Assembly: GCF_016862895.1 (NCBI RefSeq)
Contig: NZ_BONV01000009.1
Span: 124,001-188,000 of the forward strand
Direction of reading: 5' to 3'
Source: Planotetraspora kaengkrachanensis
Lineage (GTDB): Bacteria; Actinomycetota; Actinomycetes; Streptosporangiales; Streptosporangiaceae
Length of the DNA: 64,000 nucleotides
Position 1 is the first letter of the stretch; every line of letters starts with the position of its first letter. Of this stretch, positions 4,656 through 28,500 are shown piece by piece. Position numbers and translations under genes: made by a program. The notes below the pieces were generated by a model. It did not search any database. It saw only the letters and a list, made by a program, of their open reading frames with translations, and was not told the DNA's origin.

Positions 4656-6320
4656 TCACTGACCGGCCTTGTACTTGTCGTAGGCCTGCTGGTTGAGCTC
4701 CAGATACCGCTTCAGGCCGACGCCGTCGAGCCCCTGGACGAAGGCGTCCCAGTCGCTGTCGAGGTTCTTGGAGCCGGTGATGAAGGCCAGCTGGCCCTGT
4801 GCGACGTAGCTCTCGAGGTTGGTCTTCAGCGTCGCCATCTCGCCGCTGACGCTCGGGTCGATCCAGACCGAGACGGTCGGGAAGAACTGCGCCTTGTCCT
4901 CGTGGCCCTCATAGAGCTTGGTCGCCTCGAACAACCGACGCTCGTATCCGTCCTCGGCGTAGATGTCCTTCGGCGTCACCTGGGCGTTGCGGTAGTCGAG
5001 GGTCAGGTTGTACTGCGCCATCGCGTCCCAGGAGAGGTTCTTGGGGGCCTGGGAGCCCGGCGTGCGCTTGTAGAGCGGCTTGATCGATTCGTCCAGCGCG
5101 ATGTCGTCGGGTCCCGGCTTGTTCCAGCCCACGCCCTCCGGACCCATCACCGCGGTCTCGGTGCCCTCGGTCGTGAAGATGTAGTCGAGCATCTTGATCG
5201 CCGCGACCTGCGCCTCCTTGCTGGCCTTGTTGGTCAGCATGAAGGTGAAGGTGCTGGAGCTCGGGTAGTTCAGGCCGCTGTAGCTCTTACCGGACGGCCC
5301 GGTCAGCGGCGGCGCGGCGTCGTACTGCTTGTCGCGGCCGTCCTTGGAGCCCAGCTGCACGAAGATGCCGGGGTGCAGGAGCGGCGCCGAGCCGACCATG
5401 ACCGCGTCGGGGTTGTTGCCGGTCGCCTGGAGCGCCTCGGCGTTCTGCGTGAACGCCGCCTTGTCGATCAGGCCGTCCTTGACCAGCGAGTTGATGTACT
5501 TCAGGCCTTCGCGCCACTCCGGCGTGGTCACCGGGGTGGTGACCTGGTCGCCGTTGAGGGTGAGCAGCCCGACCCCGCCGTTGTTCGCACCTGCGGGCGG
5601 ATAGGCGAACGCCCCCATCAGATACTCGATGAGGTGGCTGTCCTGCACGTCCGTGGTCATCGGGATCTCGTCGGCCTTGCCGTTGCCGTTCGGGTCCTTG
5701 GTCTTGAACGCCTTCAGGACCGTGCGCAGCTCCTCGGTGGTCTTCGGCATCTGCAGGTTGAGCTTCTTCAACCATGCCGTGTTGATCCACAGCTTGTCCG
5801 GATAGCTGCAGTGGAAGCAGTCCGACCACTGCGGCAGCGCGTAGATGTGCCCGTCGGGAGCGGTCGACATCTCCTTGAGCGTCTTGTTGGAGTCCAGCGC
5901 CTTCTGGATGTTCGGCGCGTTCTCCTTGATCAGCTGCTCCAGCGGGACGGCGACGCCCTGCTTGCCCAGCTTCAGCACCTCGGCCTGGGAGAACCCGTCC
6001 ACCCAGGGGATCAGCATGAACAGATCCGGGTAGTCGCCGCTGGCGAGCGCGATCTGCCGCTTCTCCTTGGCCGGCCCCGCGTCGAACGTGGTGGTCTGCC
6101 AGCGGAACTGGATCTTGAACTTGTCACTCATCAACTTCGTGACCGGGTTGGTGTCCAGGTTCGTGTCCGCGTCGGCGGGCGCGAGCGTGTCGATGATGAC
6201 CTTGCCGCCCGCACCGAGCTCCGGCTTGCTGGATTCGTCCTCGCCTGAGCTGCACCCCGCGACGACCAGAGTCGCGGCGATCGCCAGAGCGGCGGCTTTC
6301 CTGATGGGGGGTATTTTCAT
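4656..6320 (-). CDS. Sugar ABC transporter substrate-binding lipoprotein (LplA/YtcQ-type)
   Basis: A 554-residue extracellular solute-binding protein of the large carbohydrate-uptake type. The N-terminus is a lipoprotein signal: basic MKIPPIRK, hydrophobic run, lipobox VVAGC with Cys23, then an Asp/Glu/Ser-rich linker, so it should be anchored outside the membrane. The start at 6320 is fixed by GGAAGGA four bases upstream. The body contains the expected solute-binding pattern (YPDLFMLIPW, WINTAWLKKL, the DPNGNGKADEIPM loop). It lies 23 bases downstream of two LplB/LplC-like permeases and upstream of two glycosidases. The ligand is probably an oligosaccharide bearing alpha-galactose or beta-glucosamine ends, inferred from the enzymes. 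No ATPase is encoded here, as is usual for actinobacterial sugar systems that share an MsiK-like ATPase. Confidence 0.93.
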   Translation of the reverse strand: MKIPPIRKAAALAIAATLVVAGCSSGEDESSKPELGAGGKVIIDTLAPADADTNLDTNPVTKLMSDKFKIQFRWQTTTFDAGPAKEKRQIALASGDYPDLFMLIPWVDGFSQAEVLKLGKQGVAVPLEQLIKENAPNIQKALDSNKTLKEMSTAPDGHIYALPQWSDCFHCSYPDKLWINTAWLKKLNLQMPKTTEELRTVLKAFKTKDPNGNGKADEIPMTTDVQDSHLIEYLMGAFAYPPAGANNGGVGLLTLNGDQVTTPVTTPEWREGLKYINSLVKDGLIDKAAFTQNAEALQATGNNPDAVMVGSAPLLHPGIFVQLGSKDGRDKQYDAAPPLTGPSGKSYSGLNYPSSSTFTFMLTNKASKEAQVAAIKMLDYIFTTEGTETAVMGPEGVGWNKPGPDDIALDESIKPLYKRTPGSQAPKNLSWDAMAQYNLTLDYRNAQVTPKDIYAEDGYERRLFEATKLYEGHEDKAQFFPTVSVWIDPSVSGEMATLKTNLESYVAQGQLAFITGSKNLDSDWDAFVQGLDGVGLKRYLELNQQAYDKYKAGQ

Positions 6321-6343
6321 GGTTCCTTCCAATCGGTGAATTG

Positions 6344-7282
6344 CTAGCCCTTGACGGCGCCGACCATCACGCCCTTGGTGAAGTGGCGGGCGACGAAGGG
6401 ATAGATGATCAGTACGGGCAGGCTCGAGACGACGATGAGGGCGTACTTCAGGACGTTGGCCAGCTGTTGCTGCTGGAGCTGCTGGGCCACGTCCGCGACG
6501 CCGACGTTGCGCTGGTTCAGGATCAGCACGTTCCTGAGCACGATCTGCAACGGAAAGAGATCTTGATCCTTGAGATAGACCAGGGCGTCGAAGTAGGTGT
6601 TCCACTGGAAGATCACGTACATCAGCGCGAGGACGGCCAGCAGCGGCTTCGACAGCGGCAGGACCACCGACCGGAGATAGCGGAGCTCGCTCGCCCCGTC
6701 CAGCATCGCCGCCTCGTGCAGGTCCTCCGGGATGTTGGCGAAGAACGTGCGTGCGATGATCACCTGCCAGACGCCGATCGCGTTGGGGATCAGCAGCGCC
6801 CAGCGGGTGTTCAGCATGCCGAGGTCCTGGACCACCATGTACGTCGGGATCAGGCCGCCGGAGAACAGCATGGTGAAGATCAGGGCGGTCATCAGCACGT
6901 TGCGCCCGAAGAACCGCTTGCGCGACAACGGGTAGGCGATGGCGACGGTCAGCGTGACGCTGATCAAGGTGCCGAAGACGGCGTAGATCAGCGAGTTGTA
7001 GTACCCCCGCAGGATCTGCGGGTTGCTCAGCGCGACCTCGTAGGCGCGCAGCGAGAAGTCGACCGGCCAGAAGGTCACCCGGCCTGCGGAGACGGCACTC
7101 GCGCTGCTGAACGAGTTGGCGACGATGTAGATCAGCGGCAGCAGCACCAGCGCGAGGATGACCACCAGCATGCCCGTGACGGTGATCAGGAACACCCGGT
7201 CGCGGAACGGCTCGCGGACCCGCTCCTTCGCCGCCGGCTTCCGTCGCAGTCTGGACAGCGGCGACGTCGTCAGCGCGCTCAT
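6344..7282 (-). CDS. Sugar ABC transporter permease (LplC/YtcP-like)
   Basis: Inner-membrane permease of 312 residues with about six transmembrane segments. It carries the MalG-type EAA loop, visible as EAAMLDGASELRYLRSVVLPLSKP, which docks the ATPase. The ATG at 7282 overlaps the TGA of the preceding permease by four bases (ATGA), so the two are probably translationally coupled; upstream in-frame codons lie inside that gene. The C-terminal ARHFTKGVMVGAVKG is the normal end for this family. It pairs with the 7279-8304 permease and the 4656-6320 binding protein. Confidence 0.93.
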   Translation of the reverse strand: MSALTTSPLSRLRRKPAAKERVREPFRDRVFLITVTGMLVVILALVLLPLIYIVANSFSSASAVSAGRVTFWPVDFSLRAYEVALSNPQILRGYYNSLIYAVFGTLISVTLTVAIAYPLSRKRFFGRNVLMTALIFTMLFSGGLIPTYMVVQDLGMLNTRWALLIPNAIGVWQVIIARTFFANIPEDLHEAAMLDGASELRYLRSVVLPLSKPLLAVLALMYVIFQWNTYFDALVYLKDQDLFPLQIVLRNVLILNQRNVGVADVAQQLQQQQLANVLKYALIVVSSLPVLIIYPFVARHFTKGVMVGAVKG

Positions 7283-8304
7283 CCCCACAACCCCTTCCCG
7301 GTGATCCGCTTGGCGGCGAAGTTGACGAACAGGAGCAGGCAGAGATTGACCACCGAGTTGAACAGCCCGACGGCGGTCGCCATGCTGAAGTCCGCGTTGA
7401 CCAGGCCGGTCTTGTAGACGTAGGTCGCGATGATCTCGGACTGGGCGAGGTTCAGGTCGTTCTGCAGGAGGAAGGCCTTCTCGAACCCGATCGCCATCAT
7501 GTTCCCCACGCCGAGGATCAGGATGATCACGGCAGTGGGCATGATCCCCGGCAGGTCGACGTTCCGGATCCGCTGCCAGCGGCTGGCGCCGTCGATCTTC
7601 GCGGCCTCGTGCAGCGCGGGGTCGATGCCGGCGAGGGCGGCCATGTAGATGACGGCGGAGTAGCCCGTCGTCTGCCACACGTCCGACCACACGTAGATGT
7701 GCCGGAAGTAGTCCGGGTCGCCGAGGAAGTCGATCGCCGGGATCCCGAACAGGCCGATCGCGTCGTTCACGATGCCCAGCCGCGGCGACAGAATGAGGAT
7801 CGTCATCGACACCGCCACGACGGTGGAGATGAAGTAGGGCGCGTAGGTGAGCATCTGCACCGTGCGCTTGAACAGGCCGCCCCGGATCTCGTTGAGCGCG
7901 ATGGCCAAAATGATCGGAATCGGGAAACTGGCCAGCACCAGGTAGAACGCCAGGATGAAGGTGTTCTTCAGCAGCGTGCCGAAGACCGGGTTGCTGAAGA
8001 ACAGCTCGAAGTTCTTGAACCCGACCCAGTCGCTGCCCCAGATGCCCTTGATGACGTTGTAGTCCTTGAACGCGATGACGGCGTTGCTGATCGGGATGTA
8101 CTTGAAGATGACGAAGTACGCCAGCGGCACGATCACCAGCAGGTACAGCTGCCAGTACAGCCGCCAGGACCGCCGCGCATCGGTCCAGCGGCTGTGCAGG
8201 TAGCGCTCGACCGCGTTCCTGCTCCGCCGGGAGCCGGGCGGCGGCTCGGTCGGCGGCCGGGTGGTGCGGACCTGTGAGCCCGGGGACCGTGTGGTGATCT
8301 CCAT
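7279..8304 (-). CDS. Sugar ABC transporter permease (LplB-like)
   Basis: Permease of 341 residues: an Arg/Pro-rich cytoplasmic N-terminus of about 45 residues, then about six transmembrane helices. The EAA loop reads HEAAKIDGASRWQRIRNVDLPGI. The start ATG at 8304 overlaps the stop of the upstream 67-codon reading frame in the arrangement TGATG, with GAGGG about seven bases before it. This is the first full-length transporter gene in the operon. Confidence 0.92.
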   Translation of the reverse strand: MEITTRSPGSQVRTTRPPTEPPPGSRRSRNAVERYLHSRWTDARRSWRLYWQLYLLVIVPLAYFVIFKYIPISNAVIAFKDYNVIKGIWGSDWVGFKNFELFFSNPVFGTLLKNTFILAFYLVLASFPIPIILAIALNEIRGGLFKRTVQMLTYAPYFISTVVAVSMTILILSPRLGIVNDAIGLFGIPAIDFLGDPDYFRHIYVWSDVWQTTGYSAVIYMAALAGIDPALHEAAKIDGASRWQRIRNVDLPGIMPTAVIILILGVGNMMAIGFEKAFLLQNDLNLAQSEIIATYVYKTGLVNADFSMATAVGLFNSVVNLCLLLFVNFAAKRITGKGLWG

Positions 8305-19837: not shown

Positions 19838-20089
19838 TCAGGGTGTCCATCCCAGGAACGCCTCGCCGGCCGACATGCCGCCCAGCCAGATGCCCGTCGC
19901 CGCGAACGGAACCGCCAGGCCCCAGGCGGAGCGTCTGTACACGGCCCGTACGGCCAGGCCGAACAGCACGGCCCACGCCACGAGAAGGACGATGATCGCC
20001 CAGAGCGGGGCCACCAGCCCGCTCGCCAGGTAGAAGGGCAACGTGCCCAGGTGACCGACCAGTCCCAGCCAGCTCGCCACACGGGACAA
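19838..20089 (-). CDS. Small membrane protein
   Basis: An 83-residue protein with about three hydrophobic segments (residues ~7-27, 28-50, 57-79). TTG start at 20089, with GGAGG nine bases upstream; a GTG at 20080 is an alternative. I do not recognise a family. Confidence 0.65.
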   Translation of the reverse strand: MSRVASWLGLVGHLGTLPFYLASGLVAPLWAIIVLLVAWAVLFGLAVRAVYRRSAWGLAVPFAATGIWLGGMSAGEAFLGWTP

Positions 20090-20310
20090 CCCGGGACACC
20101 TCCAAAAGGATCAGATCGCGCCTCGTTCACCGTACAGGTGATCCGCGCCGTGATCGGGCTAAGCCGCAATCAGGTCGCTCGCGCTCGTTAACTTGATCTT
20201 TACGGATTTGCCAGACGTGCATGTAAATGTCCTTTTTGGCCGCATCCTTGCCCCCGCCCAGGAACCCCTCACCTGGCCGAGGACGCAGGCCAGAAAGGGA
20301 CCGGCTCGCC

Positions 20311-20940
20311 ATGCGCCGAGTTGTCTCTGTGGTGTCAGCCGCCCTCGCGGCTCTCGTCATCTCCGGACTGACCGCTGGACCCGCCTCCGCCACCCCGCCC
20401 GGAATCCCGTCGGCGAGCACCGCGAAGTCGGAGCTGGCGGCGCTGACCGTCGCCGCCGAATCACACGCCTCCACCTACGACCGGAGCCTGTTCCCCCACT
20501 GGATCACCATCTCGGGCGCGTGCGACACCCGTGAGCAGGTGCTCAAGCGCGACGGCACCAGCGTGGTCACCAACTCGTCCTGCGCCGCGACCTCGGGCCG
20601 CTGGTACAGCCCGTATGACGGGGCCACCTGGACCGCCGCCTCCGACGTCGACATCGACCACATGGTCCCGCTCGCCGAAGCCTGGCAGTCGGGCGCCTGG
20701 AACTGGACGACCTCGCGACGCCAGGCGTTCGCCAACGACCTGAGCAGGCCGCAGCTGTGGGCGGTCACCGACAACGTCAACCAGTCCAAGGGCGACCAGG
20801 ACCCGGCCACCTGGAAGCCTTCGCTGACCTCGTTCCGCTGCACCTACGCCAGGGCGTGGGTCCAGGTGAAGTCCACCTACGGCCTCTCGGTGGACAGCGC
20901 CGAGAAGAGCGCCCTGAACAGCATGCTCGCGGCCTGCTGA
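20311..20940 (+). CDS. Secreted HNH-type nuclease (DUF1524-like)
   Basis: A 209-residue exported protein. Residues 1-28 are a Sec signal peptide ending in ASA. The mature part has paired cysteines (SGACDTRE, NSSCAATSG, SFRCTYAR, LAAC) and the nuclease core DVDIDHMVPLAEAWQSGAWNW, then NDLSRPQLWAVTDNVNQSKGDQDPATWKP; the His in DIDHMVP and the Asn/Asp pair form the metal site. The ATG at 20311 is the first start that yields a signal peptide. Transcription ends at the strong hairpin 34 bases after the stop. Confidence 0.92.
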   Translation: MRRVVSVVSAALAALVISGLTAGPASATPPGIPSASTAKSELAALTVAAESHASTYDRSLFPHWITISGACDTREQVLKRDGTSVVTNSSCAATSGRWYSPYDGATWTAASDVDIDHMVPLAEAWQSGAWNWTTSRRQAFANDLSRPQLWAVTDNVNQSKGDQDPATWKPSLTSFRCTYARAWVQVKSTYGLSVDSAEKSALNSMLAAC

Positions 20941-20973
20941 CGACTCGCGTGGCGCCGCCGACCGGCGGCGGGA

Positions 20974-21010
20974 GCGGCCCCCGACCAGCACTGCGCGGGT
21001 CGGGGGCCGC
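20974..21010 (+). terminator. Terminator of the nuclease gene
   Basis: Perfect 13-bp stem GCGGCCCCCGACC (20974-20986) and its complement (20998-21010) with an 11-base loop, followed by CGTCGTTTCC. Confidence 0.85.
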
Positions 21011-21187
21011 CGTCGTTTCCCGCCTTTCTCAACATGCCGCGGATCCGTCACTCCCCACGCAGCCCGTGCGCCCAATTCAATTGTCGCCGCCGGGCCGCAT
21101 ACATATCGCGTTTGAAATTGTCCACTTCCCCGAACACGGCAATGGCGACGGCCGCCGTGTCCAACGCCCGTGCTACAGTCCCCAGTC

Positions 21188-21697
21188 GTGGAGGAATGGA
21201 GATTCTGCCCGGTCTGCGGCCGCGACCTCGACCATCTCGGCAGCAGAGAGAACCCCTACGTGAAGTGCAGGGAGTGCGAATTCTTCAGATACAACAACCC
21301 TCTCCCCACGACCATCGGGGTCATAGAAGATGAGGGAAAGTATCTTCTCGTGCGACGCGCCATAGCGCCTGAATTGGGAAAATGGGACTCGGTGGGCGGT
21401 TTTCTGGCGCCCGGCGAGCGAGCAGAGGAATGCCTGGCACGAGAAGCCAGGGAAGAGATCGATTGCGAACTCGAGAACATCCGCCCGATAGGCAGTTATG
21501 CGTCGATATACGGATCGACCGGGCTGCGGACCGTCGGGTTCGCCTTCACCTGTTCTCTCGCCAGAGGCAGCCGCATAAAACTCTCCTCGGAAAACAGCGA
21601 ATACCACTGGTTCCGGCCCGAAGAAATTCCGGTACTGGCGTTCGAAGACGTCCGACGGGCGGTCGCGGATGTAGTCGGCGGCAGACAGCACGGATAG
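21188..21697 (+). CDS. Nudix hydrolase with N-terminal zinc ribbon
   Basis: Product of about 169 residues. The N-terminus has a CPVCGRDL ... KCREC zinc ribbon, as in NudC-like and NADH pyrophosphatase-type proteins. The Nudix box is GGFLAPGERAEECLAREAREEI (GX5EX7REUXEE) just after GKWDSV. It should cleave a nucleoside diphosphate derivative with Mg2+. The GTG at 21188 lies eight bases after a TACAGT box (21174-21179), so the message may be leaderless; an in-frame GTG at 21170 exists. The gene uses many A/T-ending codons (gaa, aaa, ata), unlike its neighbours, which suggests recent acquisition. Confidence 0.9.
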   Translation: MEEWRFCPVCGRDLDHLGSRENPYVKCRECEFFRYNNPLPTTIGVIEDEGKYLLVRRAIAPELGKWDSVGGFLAPGERAEECLAREAREEIDCELENIRPIGSYASIYGSTGLRTVGFAFTCSLARGSRIKLSSENSEYHWFRPEEIPVLAFEDVRRAVADVVGGRQHG

Positions 21698-21794
21698 CGT
21701 TCACTCCGGCGCGGCAAACGATTCGCGTTTCCAGTTTCCGAGGCTCGAGGAAATCGCGTCCCGTCGGCGGGCTGCGGCCCTGCGCTTCAAGCGC

Positions 21795-21836
21795 CCTAGT
21801 ACTCCAGCCGCACTTATTGATCTTTGAGTTGTCGCC
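21795..21836. repeat. Left 42-bp inverted repeat of the passenger element
   Basis: Starts CCTAGTACTCCAGCCGCAC and ends GAGTTGTCGCC. It matches the complement of 23912-23953 at 37 of 42 positions. The outer part is also the terminal repeat of the internally deleted element at 21797-22038. Confidence 0.85.
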
Positions 21837-22038
21837 GCTGCTAGTGAGACTGTTGAGCGTGGATCTGGTGGCGTCGCCACCACAGGGCCCAGCGGTGAAC
21901 GTGGCCTTCGTTGGTCGGTGGTCGGGTCAGTAGGGCGAACAGGCGACGAATCTCGTTGGCGGAGATCGCGATCAGGTGGTCGCCGTGAGTGATCGGTGTT
22001 GGGCCCTTCTGCGGGGCCGATGTGCGACTGGAGTACTA
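21797..22038 (-). mobile_element. Internally deleted IS701-like element (MITE-like)
   Basis: A 242-bp unit with terminal repeats at 21797-21813 and 22022-22038 (16 of 17 positions complementary). Between them, on the reverse strand, lies only the last ~50-60 codons of a transposase, ending at the TAG at 21841-21843. The peptide includes HLIAISANEIRRLFALL and HRWALWWRRHQIHAQQSH, which resemble the C-terminus of IS701-type DDE transposases; family assignment is tentative. Tetranucleotides CTAG and CTAA at the edges fit the YTAR target preference I associate with that family. Confidence 0.7.
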
Positions 22039-22091
22039 ACGCTCCGTCACCACCGAAAGAGAGACAGAGCCGTTCAATGGACAGACCCCGC

Positions 22092-23405
22092 TCACGGGAG
22101 CACATCCGTGCGCAGGCGGGTCTGGACGAACTTCTCTATCCGCCAGGAGCCATCGACCTTGGCGAACTCGCCGTGATAGTGGCCGTAGCCGCGCACCTTG
22201 AGGGTGCTGCCGTCGATCCAGTCCTCCATGTTGATGGTCGAGGACGCAGCCACCGGCGAGTGGACCTCGGTGGTGAAGGAGAACAGGTGGTGGATCGCGG
22301 TGGCGTCGCCGACGCTGGTGGTGATGACGTCCTCGATCTCCTTCGGGCCGGTCATCTGCATAACCTGGACGCCTTGCGGGTCATAGATCGTGAAGGTCGC
22401 CTCCGGTGCGAACAGCCGCGCGAGCTGGTCGAACTGTTTGTGGTCGGCGTAGTAGGCGTACTGGGCCATGAACTGGCGGATCTCGTCGACGATGACCAGC
22501 CGCTCAGTATCGGACACCGCGAAGAATCGGCGGAATCGCTCCGCGGTGGCCTGCGGGTTGTCGAACGCGTACGCGTGGGAAGCCTGCGCAATGACATCGG
22601 TTTCGATGTTCTCGGCGACCTGCCGGGCGCCGGCCAGCAGTTGGCCGCGGTAGTAGCCGTGGTCGCCGTTGAGCACCAGGACCGGCATCGGGAGCCGGGT
22701 CGTGAACTCGGCCCGGTTGGCCTTGCCGTCCTCGATCATGGCGCCGTAGTGCTGGAAGCCGCCGCGGATGCCGTTCGGGCCGGTGAAATGCGGCAGATAG
22801 TGGGCGACGCCGTATTCCTCGGCGTCCGGCCGCACCGAGGTCAGCCGGTAGAACGGTGTGAGGTATTCGGTTTCCTTGCCCTGGGTGAGGAACGTGGCGA
22901 GGTCGACCTGGCCGCTGAACCCGAAGCCATAGGTACCGCCCTCGACGGAAGGGTTCATCATCTCCTCAAGGCCGAAGCCGGGGATCAGCGTCTCGGAGAG
23001 CACCAGCCGGCGGACCTCGTCAGGGTGCCGTGACGCGTACGCGTAGACCACCATGCCGCCCACGTCCATGCCGACCAGGTTGATCGGTCCGAGACCCAGC
23101 CCGAGCACGATCTGCCGGATGTCCTCGGCGACGTTGGTCTTGGCGAAGGTGTCGCTCTCGGCTGGGTCGGAATCGCCCATGCCGCGCAGGTCGGGGGCTA
23201 GCACGGTGTAGCCCTGGGCCGCCAGCATCGGCATTAGCTCACGCCATACCGCCCAGGTGAACGGGAAGCCATGCACCAGCACGACCGCCGGGCCGGCGCC
23301 GCCGATCACGTAGTGGATGCGGGTGCCGTTCACTTCGGCGTAGCGGTGGTGGAAGCCGTGCAGGCCGTCTACCGCAGTTCCCGGTTCGGGATGAGTCACA
23401 GTCAT
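22092..23405 (-). CDS. Alpha/beta-hydrolase fused to a SnoaL/NTF2-like domain
   Basis: A 437-residue two-domain protein. Residues ~17-300 form an epoxide-hydrolase/haloalkane-dehalogenase-like fold: oxyanion region VHGFPFTWAVW (44-54), nucleophile Asp114 in GMDVGG (an aspartate, not a serine), acidic Asp248 and His277. Residues ~308-437 form a SnoaL-like cone (VDEIRQFMAQYAYYADHKQFDQLARLFAPEATFTIYD), a fold seen in polyketide cyclases and ring-cleaving enzymes. AGGAGG lies five bases before the ATG at 23405. Reaction unknown; hydrolysis of an epoxide or halide is a reasonable guess. It is divergent from MerR, whose dyad lies at its promoter, and is carried between the 42-bp repeats. Confidence 0.88.
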   Translation of the reverse strand: MTVTHPEPGTAVDGLHGFHHRYAEVNGTRIHYVIGGAGPAVVLVHGFPFTWAVWRELMPMLAAQGYTVLAPDLRGMGDSDPAESDTFAKTNVAEDIRQIVLGLGLGPINLVGMDVGGMVVYAYASRHPDEVRRLVLSETLIPGFGLEEMMNPSVEGGTYGFGFSGQVDLATFLTQGKETEYLTPFYRLTSVRPDAEEYGVAHYLPHFTGPNGIRGGFQHYGAMIEDGKANRAEFTTRLPMPVLVLNGDHGYYRGQLLAGARQVAENIETDVIAQASHAYAFDNPQATAERFRRFFAVSDTERLVIVDEIRQFMAQYAYYADHKQFDQLARLFAPEATFTIYDPQGVQVMQMTGPKEIEDVITTSVGDATAIHHLFSFTTEVHSPVAASSTINMEDWIDGSTLKVRGYGHYHGEFAKVDGSWRIEKFVQTRLRTDVLP

Positions 23406-23434
23406 CGGAGCCTCCTAGATTGTCGGTCGGCTCG

Positions 23435-23467
23435 AACGTAAACCTTGGAGTATGCTCCAAGGTCCAG
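23435..23467. promoter_or_regulatory. MerR-type operator and promoter between hydrolase and merR genes
   Basis: A perfect dyad, ACCTTGGAG (23442-23450), TATG, CTCCAAGGT (23455-23463). On the reverse strand it lies between a -35-like CTGGAC (23462-23467) and a -10-like TACGTT (23435-23440), about 20 bases apart. A long spacer filled by a dyad is the arrangement that MerR proteins untwist to activate. It points toward the hydrolase gene. Confidence 0.75.
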
Positions 23468-23519
23468 GGTGATCCGCGTCTCACTCCACTCCGCTCGGAT
23501 CGACAGGGAGGCTCAGCGT

Positions 23520-23885
23520 ATGTTGATCGGCGAATTCGCAAAACGCGTCGGCGTCAGCACCGACACGATCCGCTTCTACGGGAAGGTGGGCTTCTTCTCC
23601 AGTAGCCGCAGCGAGAACGGCTATCGGCACTACACCGAGAAGGACATCGAAACGGCCGACCTCATCGCCTCCGGGAAATCGATAGGTTTCTCCCTGCGCG
23701 AGATCCTGGCCTTCTCCCAGGAGATGACCGACGGCGTGCTAGATCACGCGCGAGCACAAGAGAGCCTGCAGTCCAAGATCAACCTCATCGACGAGCGGAT
23801 CGCATCACTGAAACGAGTCCGGAAGCTGGCGCAGCAGCAACTCGACTATTGCCGGGCGGTGGAGGCGCAAGAGCTCTCTGTGTGA
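23520..23885 (+). CDS. MerR-family transcriptional regulator
   Basis: A 121-residue regulator: HTH MLIGEFAKRVGVSTDTIRFYGKVGF, wing SENGYRHYTEKDIETADLI, and a coiled-coil dimer helix from ~residue 75 (QESLQSKINLIDERIASLKRVRKLAQQQLDYCRAV). A single Cys near the C-terminus replaces the metal-binding Cys pairs of CueR/ZntR, so it is probably a ligand or stress sensor. Residue 21 is Gly (FYGKVGF) where Tyr/Glu is common (YYE). GGGAGG precedes the ATG. It should activate the divergent hydrolase gene. Confidence 0.9.
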   Translation: MLIGEFAKRVGVSTDTIRFYGKVGFFSSSRSENGYRHYTEKDIETADLIASGKSIGFSLREILAFSQEMTDGVLDHARAQESLQSKINLIDERIASLKRVRKLAQQQLDYCRAVEAQELSV

Positions 23886-23911
23886 AACGCCGCTCTGGGC
23901 AGATAACGAAC

Positions 23912-23953
23912 GGCAACAACTCAAAGATCAATAGGTGCGGTCGGAGCACTAGG
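23912..23953. repeat. Right 42-bp inverted repeat of the passenger element
   Basis: Complement of the left repeat at 37 of 42 positions. Its outer CCTAGT overlaps the TAG stop codon of the MarR gene, so insertion happened exactly at the end of that gene or rebuilt its stop. Confidence 0.85.
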
Positions 23954-24398
23954 AGCGGCCGAGCCCGCCGTACACCTTCCGCAGAAGGGTGTGCAGCCGG
24001 AGCCGGTCCTCCCGGCTCAACGGAGCGAGGATCTCGTCCTGCACCCTTCTGGCGTCGGCGTCCAGCTCGGCGAGTGCCGTACGCCCGGAGTCCGTCAGGG
24101 TGACGGCGACCCGGCGCCGGTCACCGGGGTCACGCGAGCGGTCGACGTAGCCGGCGACGGCCAGCTCGTCCACCACCTTGGCCACGTCGCTCGGGTCCAT
24201 CGCGAGCCGGGTCGCCAGGTCACGCTGCGCGTGCGGGCCGAAGTCCGCCAGGGCCGCCAGCGTCGCCATGTGCCAGAGCCGGAGCCCGCGGGCGGCCAGC
24301 CGCTCGGCGAGCCCGGCTCGCGCCGCCTTGCCCGTCAGAGACAGCAGATAGGTGCTGAGCCCGAGCAGGCTGGGCGGCCGACCGGTGGAGAGGTCCAT
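23949..24398 (-). CDS. MarR-family transcriptional regulator
   Basis: A 149-residue winged-helix protein: LRLWHMATLAALADFGPHAQRDLATRLAMDPSDVAKVVDELAVAGYVDRSRDPGDRRRVAVTLTDSG is the MarR core with the DxRxR wing. The ATG at 24398 lies seven bases after a TACAAT box (24406-24411) and lacks a ribosome site, so the message is probably leaderless. A dyad at 24410-24423 overlaps that promoter. Its stop codon is formed by the end of the neighbouring inverted repeat. Divergent from a VOC protein gene. Confidence 0.9.
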   Translation of the reverse strand: MDLSTGRPPSLLGLSTYLLSLTGKAARAGLAERLAARGLRLWHMATLAALADFGPHAQRDLATRLAMDPSDVAKVVDELAVAGYVDRSRDPGDRRRVAVTLTDSGRTALAELDADARRVQDEILAPLSREDRLRLHTLLRKVYGGLGRS

Positions 24399-24405
24399 AC
24401 GGGCA

Positions 24406-24423
24406 ATTGTAGGGTTAGCCCTA
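24406..24423. promoter_or_regulatory. MarR promoter -10 and operator
   Basis: Reverse-strand -10 TACAAT (24406-24411), overlapped by the perfect dyad TAGGG-TTAG-CCCTA (24410-24423). It lies between the divergent MarR and VOC genes and suits autorepression. Confidence 0.65.
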
Positions 24424-24455
24424 TAGTGGGTCTTCACCTACTATTGGAGGACATC

Positions 24456-24863
24456 ATGGACGCCCTTCACCCCCGGCTGCTCGTCACCCGCTTCTCCCCC
24501 AGCTTCGCCTTCTACGACGCCGTCCTTCCCGAACTGCTCGGCGCCGAGCTGGCGAGAGGCGACGCGAGCGGGCCGTACGCCGCCTGGGACGTCGACGGTC
24601 AGGGGGTGCTGGTCCTGTTCGACCGTGCCGCGATGGCCGCGGTCGCGGGGACGGCGAGCCTGCCCGCCGACGGCTCCCCCGCGCAGGACGACGTGATGTT
24701 CGTGTGCCGGGTGGCCGACGTGGACGCCGCGCTGACGCTCTGCCTGCGCCATGGCGCGACACCGGCGGCCGCCGCGGCCGACCGTCCCGAATGGGGTCCG
24801 GGCCTCCGGACCGCCCACGTCCGCGGCCCCGAGGGCATGCTGATCGAGCTGCAGTCCTACTGA
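24456..24863 (+). CDS. VOC-family protein
   Basis: A 135-residue single VOC domain: LLVTRFSPSFAFYDAVLPELLGAEL, DDVMFVCRVADVDAALTLCLRHGA, and the closing RTAHVRGPEGMLIELQSY with the metal-type Glu in the last strand. TTGGAGG lies five bases before the ATG. Probably controlled by the divergent MarR. Substrate unknown. Confidence 0.9.
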   Translation: MDALHPRLLVTRFSPSFAFYDAVLPELLGAELARGDASGPYAAWDVDGQGVLVLFDRAAMAAVAGTASLPADGSPAQDDVMFVCRVADVDAALTLCLRHGATPAAAAADRPEWGPGLRTAHVRGPEGMLIELQSY

Positions 24864-24905
24864 GCGGCCTCTTCACAATCGGTGCGCCTGCCTCGTCGTA
24901 CAGGT

Positions 24906-25331
24906 ATGACCATCACCTTGCGTCGCCTGGTGCTCGTGGTGATGACCGCGGCCAACGCGGTCACCGGTGGCTGGGCCTACGGCGCTCCGCGACACTGGTA
25001 CGAAAACTTCCCAGGAATGGGCCGGAGCTGGCTGCCCCAACTTGGCCCCTTCAACGAGCACCTGGCCAAGGACGCCGGGGCGATGTTCCTGGCCCTCACG
25101 GTCTTGGGCCTGATCGCGCTGTGGCAGGTGAAGAACACCATGTTCATGCAGGTCACCGCGCTCGTCCTGCTGACGTTCAACGTGCTGCACCTGATCTACC
25201 ACATGCGTCATCTGCACGTGTACGGAGATCTCGACAAGGCGCTCAACGTCGTCGTACTGATCCTGCTGGTCGTCCTGCCCCTCGTGCTGCTGGTGCCCGA
25301 GCGGACCAGGAAACCGGTCGCCGCGGGCTAA
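24906..25331 (+). CDS. Four-helix membrane protein
   Basis: A 141-residue protein with about four transmembrane helices and the motif PFNEHLAKDAGAMFLALTVLG before the second helix, which looks like a conserved functional segment of an uncharacterised family. The start is uncertain: the ATG at 24906 has only ACAGGT upstream, and a GTG at 24882 is in frame. No known function recognised. Confidence 0.78.
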   Translation: MTITLRRLVLVVMTAANAVTGGWAYGAPRHWYENFPGMGRSWLPQLGPFNEHLAKDAGAMFLALTVLGLIALWQVKNTMFMQVTALVLLTFNVLHLIYHMRHLHVYGDLDKALNVVVLILLVVLPLVLLVPERTRKPVAAG

Positions 25332-25503
25332 CGCACGGCCGGCAGCACGCGATTCGAGAGCACCTGCCAGATGGCTTCGACCTCACGGAAGCCCGCATCG
25401 CGCAGCGCCGCCACGGGGACGTCGAATCCCGGCGGCGACTCCTGCCGCCGCTTGCCGGCGAACCGCCGAGTCCGCTCGGTCAGCAGCGCGGTCGGCGGCT
25501 CAC
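25332..25503 (-). pseudogene. C-terminal remnant of a class I SAM methyltransferase
   Basis: On the reverse strand an open frame reads GFDVPVAALRDAGFREVEAIWQVLSNRVLAG, the usual last two strands of a small SAM-dependent methyltransferase. It has no start, no SAM-binding motif and no proper stop; the frame runs into the membrane-protein gene. It lies just beyond the terminator of the large secreted protein. Confidence 0.55.
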
Positions 25504-25542
25504 GCCCGGTGCGCCGGGGACCGCCCCGACTTCGGCCGGCCA

Positions 25543-25571
25543 GGAAGGGCCCCCTTGCGGTGGGCCCTTCC
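25543..25571 (-). terminator. Terminator of the large secreted hydrolase gene
   Basis: GGAAGGGCCC (25543-25552) and GGGCCCTTCC (25562-25571) form a perfect 10-bp stem with a 9-base loop, 23 bases beyond the stop codon on the reverse strand. Confidence 0.8.
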
Positions 25572-25594
25572 GGTCAGTGCGTCCGAGCGCCCGA

Positions 25595-28500
25595 TCACCT
25601 CTTCTTGATGAGCGTCACCTCCACGGACCGGCTCGCGCTCCGACCGGTCGCGTTCTCGAACGTGATCGTGAGATCGACGGCAAGCCTGCCCAGCTTGATC
25701 AAGGTTTGGCGGTACGCGGGCGCGACCGTCACCTTCATCGTGAACGTGCTCCCCTCGCGCACCTGACGGGTGACCGTGGCCACCTTGTCGCCGGACAGGG
25801 TGACCGTGCCGGCCGTGTTCACCGTGGTGGTGATCGTCGCCGCGCCCGCGTCGGCGTCGGTCTCCACCTTGCCGATCTTGATCGTGGGCGGCGGGGTCAC
25901 CGGGGCGACGGTGTAGGTCACCGGGCTGGAGCGGGTCGCGTTCCCGGATGAGTCGACGACCAGCGCCTGGAACGTGACGTGCCTGCCGGCGTCCTTCGGA
26001 CCCGGCGTCCAGCTGAGCAGATACGGCGCGGTGGTGGTGCTTGCGACCTTGGTGCCGTCGACGAGCAGGCTCGCCGACTGGACGGCGAAGTCGTCGGCGC
26101 CACGGATGAGCGGATGCACCGTGGATCCCACCTGGAACACCGATCCACGCCCCGGGTCGGCCACTTCGGCCGTCGGCCCGTGGTCGGCGACGCGACCCAC
26201 TCCGGTCGGCACCCCCCGCGGCGGCGACGAGCGGAGACCGGTGACGGCGACCGTGGCCGCGCCCGTGCTGTCGGGGCCGGAGACGGCCTTGAGCCCGGTT
26301 CGTGTCTTGTGGCCCGTACCCAGGTAGCTGCCCGACAGGGCGAACGGTGCGCCTTCGCGCACGGCGGTGTTGCCGGCGTCGGCGTTGTACACCGCGAACC
26401 CGTTCCCGGTGAGGATGTCACCCGAAGCGGTGAGCGCTCCGGCCGTATCGGTGCCGGCGTCGGTCAGCAGGATGCCGTACGACTGCGACGGCGCGGGCGT
26501 GTAGTAGTTCCCGGTGATCCGGCTGTCGTTCACGAAGCCGGTCACACCGCTGGTGTACTTCACGCCGGCCTGCGGGAACAGGCTGTTCGGCTTGCCCGTG
26601 ACGACCGTACCGGTCACGTATCCGTGATACCGGATGCCGGTCCGGACGGTGTTGTCCGGGCTGCCGTCCTTGCCGCGGGCGCCGTCGAACAGGATGCCGC
26701 CCGATTGGTAGCCGGTGATCACGCTGTCGGTGACGGTGAGCTCGCTCTCGACCGTGCCGGGGCCTGCACCCTGGATCACGCCGGTCTTTACGACACCCCA
26801 GCCGTGCGGGTGCCCGGCCAGCTCCTGCGCGTCGGCCGCGACCTTCATCGGGCCGACGACGCTGTTCGCGACCCGTCCGGCCGCACCGAAGTAGGCGATG
26901 CCCGCCTCGGCCCAGACCTTGCCCGAGGTCACCGTCACGCCCGAGATGTCGACGAACATCTCGTTGGTGTCGGTCGAGCCGAGAGACTGCCTGGACACCG
27001 TGATCACGTTGCCGCCGCCGTCACGCAGGTACGGCTGGTCGCCCGCCAGCGTCCCGAGCGACTGGTCGGGCTCGATGGTCACCTTGTCGGATCCCGCACC
27101 CTTGATCTTCAAGGGCTTGTTGATGGTCAGGCCGTTCCTCGCGCCCGTCTGAACGGGGTTGGACGTGCTGTTCACCGGAGTCGAAGACTCCTGGTATACG
27201 CCCGCGCACACCACGATCGTGTCCCAGGGCGCCGCGTGGTCGACGGCCGTCTGGATCGAGGTGAACTGGGCGTTCGGGCACTGCTTCCTGTCGTCGTCGA
27301 CGGTCCAGGTCGTGTTCCCCTGCGGGTTCGCGACCACGTCGTTGAGCTTGACGTCGCCCGGAGTGTTGTCGTAGGCGGCGAGGTACGCCGCCGGGTCCGG
27401 ACCGGCCGTCCTGCCGTAGCCGGCGCCGTTCGCCCTGTCGCCGTCCGAAAGGATCTTCGATCCCGCCTCGCTCTCCTGGAAGCGCACGTCGGCCAGCTCG
27501 ATCGAGCCGGACTTCGGCATGTCGCCCACGCCGAAGCGGAACTCGAGCTTCGACAGGGAGCCGACGTCAACGCCCTGTGCGGCGAACTCACCGAGCGGGA
27601 CGCGGATCTGGTCGAGGACGATGTGCGTGTTCGGGGTGTTCGTTCCGGTCGACATGTGCAGGGCGTTGCCCCAGCGGGGGTCCCCGGCGTCGACGGTGCC
27701 CTCGTGGCCGGCCGTGTCGCTCAGCGCGATCACGAAGTTCTGGGTCGTCGAGGCCGGGTCGTACGACGTCGGCAGTTCGTTCGGCCACACCGGGTTCGCC
27801 GGGGTGCCGTTCACCGTCGTGTCCCGGGTGTTGTCGCCGCGATTGTCGGCGCCGGGGTTGCGGGTGTCGAAGAAGTTGACGGCTGCGCTCAGAGCCAGGG
27901 CCTTGAGGTCGCGCATGTCCTTCGACGCGGCCGGGATCTGGGCGGTGAGCGTGGCGGCCGAGTTCCGGTCCCACGCGAGGGTGAGCTGGCGGCCGTAGGA
28001 ATGGTTGATCGGGCTGTTCTCGCGGGTGCCGTTCTGCCCGCCGAGCGCGCTCGCCGTGGGCAGCGGGCAGGGCTTGGCCGCGGTCGGCAGCCTGCTCTTG
28101 CCGAGTTGCGACGGCGCGAAGTCCTGAGGCTCCGGGTTGCACCAGTCGTACCCGCCCGCGGTCCTAGCCGGCTTCGGTGCGACACCGGCGGCCTGCGCGT
28201 ACGGGTCGGCGAAGCCGCCGCCGGTCAGGGAGCCGCCGAGGGCGTTGAGCGTGAGCGGGTTGCCCACCTCGGGACGTATCACGTCGACCCGCTCCTGCGG
28301 CGCGGCGAAGTAGGTCGTGTTGACCCGCTCGTTGCACGGGATGGCCGTGCCGGACGGACTCGTGGGACACGCCGCCGGCGGGACCTGCAGCCCGGTGGAG
28401 GTGTCCGAGAGCTCACCGGTCATGTACGGCTGGAACGCGCCCTCGCCGCCGACGTAGCGGCGGAGGAAGGCGGCCATCGTGGCCAGTCCGAGCTTCTCCT

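Follow-up and report, generated by a model that had tools for sequence, protein, structure and literature searches.

The window (the whole stretch of 64,000 nucleotides of Planotetraspora kaengkrachanensis DNA that was analysed) holds, between a NUDIX gene and a marR gene, a divergent gene pair flanked by fragments of insertion sequences (Table 1). The closest PDB structures to the hydrolase domain are Cif-like epoxide hydrolases (7jqx, Cif-like 1, E 7e-50), and no NCBIfam cut-off was reached among 25 of the 29 families listed. In the alignment to 7jqx, the HGFP sequence (an HGXP motif) and a VGMDVGG stretch with the position of the Asp nucleophile are conserved, a His in the catalytic region is aligned, the position of the putative lid His falls on a Gly, and the Tyr position is kept on our reading. 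The lid His assignment and the positions of the His-Tyr ring-opening pair in this alignment are putative; the pair itself and, in part, the roles of the catalytic residues are described in PMC8244358. The regulator, which reached none of 14 NCBIfam cut-offs, is CueR/MerR-like, and dyads related to the one lying between the two genes, some of them with changed arms, occur at all seven loci examined (a Devosia MAG locus, L063, with 48% identity over residues 1-300, was excluded from the dyad search and from the cargo counts below). Judging from these comparisons, the cargo is probably an epoxide-hydrolase-type enzyme under a divergent MerR switch, with a predicted function of enzyme and regulator in detoxification.

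Table 1 Features of the element and its immediate flanks (positions in the window)
Feature	Position	Strand	Basis or remark
NUDIX gene	21170-21697		left flank
Left outer target site, CTAG	21796-21799		letters; YTAR at flanks of other IS701 copies
IS701 internal-deletion remnant, 236 bp	21800-22035	minus	3' part ~21800-22016, 5' end ~22017-22035
End of ISL3-family element	22036 to ~22086		right limit approximate
Cargo block common to four Planotetraspora and Pseudonocardia, ~97-99%	22089-23910		to 23895 in P. silvatica
Alpha/beta-hydrolase (Cif-like epoxide hydrolase type) fused to SnoaL-like domain	22092-23405	minus	Pfam, PDB comparison
MerR-type dyad ACCTTGGAGTATGCTCCAAGGT	23442-23463		between the divergent genes
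MerR-family regulator, 121 aa, divergent from hydrolase	23520-23885	plus	Pfam
IS701 3'-end scrap, 38 bp, second copy, inverted relative to the left one	23911-23948	plus	
Right outer target site, CTAG	23949-23952		holds the MarR stop codon TAG
marR gene	23949-24437	minus	right flank

IS701 ends and their target sites

The longest inverted repeat listed in 20000-26000 pairs 21795-21837 with 23911-23953 over 43 nt, of which 38 (88%) are complementary. Its ungapped score of 28, the best of the region, compares with 12-18 in 12 Markov-shuffled versions, confirming that the repeat is real and beyond chance. By sequence match, both arms are the 3' ends of one and the same IS701-family element. The 3' part of the left remnant aligns with a copy elsewhere in the genome at 93% over 214 bp, and its inner end agrees exactly with the 5' end of that copy over 22-24 nt, target bases included; its outer terminus is complete to the final base. 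The right copy breaks off at 23910/23911, and neither piece encodes a transposase. The arms disagree at 5 of the 38 IS bases, and four of these five differences lie within the terminal 15, so that the right end was possibly inactive.

These observations bear out much of the earlier note, which had reported 37 of 42 complementary positions between 21795-21836 and 23912-23953 (we obtain the same count, with a score above all 12 shuffles), had read the left repeat as one end of a deleted IS701-like element (as the 214-bp and 22-nt matches bear out) and had found the same IS end within the right repeat. CTAG does lie at both outer edges, and the right edge does supply the MarR stop. The 42-bp repeat as a unit has to be given up: it is made of the last 38 bp of IS701 and the CTAG target, with no special terminus. 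The claim that the repeats enclose exactly one gene pair is correct as regards the hydrolase/SnoaL fusion and the divergent merR, both recognised by Pfam, but overlooks about 50 bp of ISL3 sequence. By eye, the MarR of P. phitsanulokensis continues for some four codons beyond the stop of the window's MarR.

A single full-length copy of this IS was found in the organism's own genome, in searches that scored 40 of 153 and 40 of 64 candidates and in an assembly of 96 contigs, from which collapsed IS copies may be missing. It lies at G000:C4:360046-362903 (in locus L043 at 5048-7908) with CTAG on each side; the C-terminal part of its transposase matches the IS701 model NF033540 (NCBIfam) with E 1.3e-105, and the gene is split by an IS3-family insertion. 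A full-length IS with these ends, which the earlier note had proposed as a check, thus exists in this genome, but in broken form. Besides the window's two pieces, the same genome holds scraps of 143 bp (78%), 99 bp (86%) and 44 bp (84%). Solo truncated IS701 3' ends were seen in three other Planotetraspora species (L046:3633-3686, L045:15679-15738 and L044:3635-3845).

Targets were read from nine copies with two ends of this type, namely the own-genome copy and eight different ones from the fetched loci, L094 and L149 (the same copy) being counted once. Each is flanked by YTAR at both ends; the four flanking bases are identical in six and differ by one base in three. The eight uninterrupted relatives span 1446-1503 bp, the transposase of each being possibly but not necessarily intact. 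According to PMC2266710, almost all IS701 elements generate a target duplication of exactly four base pairs; our literature search returned no paper that names CTAG together with the IS701 family and target site duplication. The window has CTAG at both outer flanks and CTAA at the inner flank. The match between the two outer ends offers modest support for composite transposition, because single IS copies can have unequal flanks, and it is weak by itself because this IS is often flanked by CTAG. Indeed, the same data are compatible with two independent IS701 scars around a cargo that came by another vehicle (a plasmid, recombination or another IS), with the left junction arising by an IS-adjacent deletion: since IS701 copies sit at YTAR, the two CTAG sites could agree by chance, and a third of the two-ended copies have unequal flanks anyway. 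Solo 3' ends and short scraps elsewhere in the genus likewise favour this alternative, which we nevertheless regard as rather unlikely, for reasons that emerge at a second locus.

The inner edge of the left remnant records what the IS had entered. Positions 22036-22071 match one end of an ISL3 element (NCBIfam NF033550) in the same genome (G000:C12) at all 36 nt. Flanking the IS701 on its inner side is the CTAA at 22036-22039, whose counterpart in the ISL3 element contains the transposase stop codon. The full match together with this flank indicates that the left IS701 inserted into an ISL3 copy. Outside the outer terminus, CTAG and unrelated DNA follow, joined exactly at the end of the IS: an ISL3 search at E 1 found no match in 20000-21795, where ISL3 sequence would be expected, and the lone 20-bp match (E 0.48) falls within the IS701 remnant. 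An IS transposase has probably re-joined the left outer end to new DNA, because junctions exact at the terminus and at a YTAR site are what a transposase makes, whether it moves the unit as a whole or deletes DNA next to the IS.

Nothing related to the left flank turned up among the genomes searched, and no empty site was found. When the joined flanks were compared with the marR regions of six relatives, the alignment score exceeded 60 in one of the six, on the marR side only; the left flank scored 22 against P. phitsanulokensis, a value reached by 106 of 300 shuffles. At 1e-15 the NUDIX gene matched nothing else in 297 family genomes, nor did it at 1e-25 in 394 class genomes, the organism's own being included in each set; among the rows listed, 8-11 candidates per genome were scored, so weak relatives could escape. 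It too was probably acquired recently. Its G+C content is 59%, against 69% for the window. A gene beside marR in P. mira that at first seemed to be a second NUDIX has no homology to the window's. Gene order across 20166-25324 is rearranged relative to P. phitsanulokensis, where the nuclease gene adjoins the counterpart of the 24882-25331 gene and marR lies about 6 kb off.

Spread of the cargo and a second IS701-flanked locus

The cargo block is 98-99% identical in P. phitsanulokensis, P. mira, P. silvatica and P. thailandica, 97% in Pseudonocardia alaniniphila, 84% in Actinoplanes sp. TBRC 11911 and, in pieces, 68-77% in Actinacidiphila guanduensis. Within the genus, the hydrolase diverges by 0.017-0.042 at fourfold sites, and the Pseudonocardia gene differs by 0.043 from the window copy and by 0.051-0.065 from the other Planotetraspora copies; merR differs from the window copy at one to three of 57-58 such sites within the genus. 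In the same species, six other window genes (ABC ATPase, ABC permease, binding protein, GH15, MarR and nuclease, not each of which was found in all species) gave 0.13-0.49 in 20 comparisons, or 0.13-0.32 without MarR. OrthoANI values within Planotetraspora are 84.5-95.3% according to PMC11431748. Apart from short shared edges, the flanks of the cargo differ in each species; nearby blocks of 514 bp and 71 bp are each common to two loci. On these grounds (low hydrolase divergence together with differing flanks), the spread of the cargo is recent and horizontal. The 514-bp block, 89% identical, is found in P. phitsanulokensis and P. silvatica (L056:9703-10216 and L058:7537-8049), and its protein gave only a weak TPR match, below the cut-off.

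With four candidates per genome scored, a search for the cargo at 1e-90 returned 1 of 394 genomes of the class, the organism's own (the other four Planotetraspora, all carriers of the cargo, are evidently not part of this sample). Searches for a phage vehicle gave no DNA match in the phage collection and, in IMG/VR, one pattern match that is no relative; among plasmid records, none covered 80% of the protein and none covered 80% of the element. In the 13-kb stretches around the cargo of P. mira, P. silvatica and P. thailandica there is no IS701 transposase match or terminus, and a search of the Pseudonocardia locus for termini found none. Since the cargo stands free of IS701 in three of the four other Planotetraspora species, IS701 is one possible carrier among several. 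In four of the six nearest copies (the window's counted), the cargo is bounded differently, which is a further point for independent scars.

The fourth species, P. phitsanulokensis, repeats the arrangement. At a different locus it has the same junction of IS701, CTAA, ISL3 and cargo, with about 610 bp of the left IS701 kept and a 268-bp, inverted IS701 fragment on the right, so that the 3' ends of both pieces point outward; both are truncated, and their outer ends are therefore not visible. With 40 candidates per genome scored, the two pieces flanking the cargo are the only matches longer than 100 bp to this IS in that genome. The shorter ones are of 62 bp and 44 bp, and two further short matches are to a part of the query read as IS3 sequence. 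Independent insertions would not easily produce such an inverted arrangement around one cargo at two separate loci. Long IS701 stretches are few in the genus, yet they flank the cargo on both sides, inverted, at two loci in two species, and it is this that weighs against two unrelated scars.

Origin of the element

We therefore favour, and hold to be fairly probable, the view that 21796-23952 is the remnant of a decayed IS701-family composite transposon. Since sister species have almost the same hydrolase-merR pair at other loci, the pair is probably mobile cargo, its carrier having decayed here. We infer the following order of events: an ISL3 element would have landed beside the hydrolase gene; an IS701 would then have inserted into it at CTAA, with a second, inverted IS701 at the merR end of the pair; acting through their 3' ends, which faced outward, the two copies would have carried the whole of IS, cargo and IS to a CTAG that lay between the NUDIX gene and marR and was thereby duplicated; and internal deletions would later have removed both transposase genes. 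Against this composite origin stand the empty site that was looked for and not found, the mismatches between the arms, the unequal flanks of some single copies, the truncation of both IS pieces in P. phitsanulokensis, the three species whose cargo lacks IS701 nearby and the other IS701 scraps in the genus.

The element is a relic and not a defined mobile family. The earlier note had suggested a non-autonomous, transposase-mobilised element; of this, the IS origin, the CTAG target, the mobility of the cargo and, probably, a past transposition as a unit stand, but a present-day passenger element does not, as the only full-length copy found in the genome is broken, no other pair was seen in the 341 genomes scanned, and three of the four other Planotetraspora carry the cargo without IS701 nearby. 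A family of non-autonomous elements with 42-bp termini of its own and various cargoes is very improbable. It would fit the intact left outer terminus and the existence of a source IS; against it, the 38 bp are nothing more than the 3' end of IS701, four of the 15 terminal bases are not the same in the right end as in the left, and a scan of 341 family genomes for 3'-type ends, allowing up to three mismatches, gave 31 ends in 25 genomes and no other contig with a cargo enclosed between two of them (draft contigs can split pairs). Other elements with the same ends and different cargo, which the earlier note had envisaged, were thus not seen in these genomes, many of which are drafts that may hide pairs.

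More tentatively, the pair may possibly be a self-contained detoxification switch spreading by relay, in which ISL3, then IS701 and, elsewhere, other elements capture it, carry it and leave scars. If so, a gene rare among the sampled actinomycetes has recently reached all five Planotetraspora genomes and another order, at different loci. The locus is in itself a legible example of accessory genes being acquired, transported and abandoned by IS elements in a rare genus of actinomycetes. That the cargo has spread recently through all five genomes suggests that removal of the enzyme's substrate, whatever this may be, has been selected for.

Relation to known systems

The hydrolase shares with the Cif-like epoxide hydrolases (7jqx) the fold and motif only, with no implication of virulence, and differs from them in its C-terminal SnoaL-like domain, the Gly at the lid position and the divergent MerR gene. 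With the IS701 family the element has in common the NF033540 match of its source IS, a transposase of that family, and the 4-bp target duplication (identical flanks in six of nine copies, YTAR in nine of nine). Like composite transposons, it has two inverted copies of one IS around a cargo and the same 4-bp target at both outer ends (CTAG at 21796 and 23949); unlike them, its IS copies are remnants without transposase, and its movement is deduced. The locus is better described as an IS701 composite transposon in decayed form, whose cargo has travelled widely.
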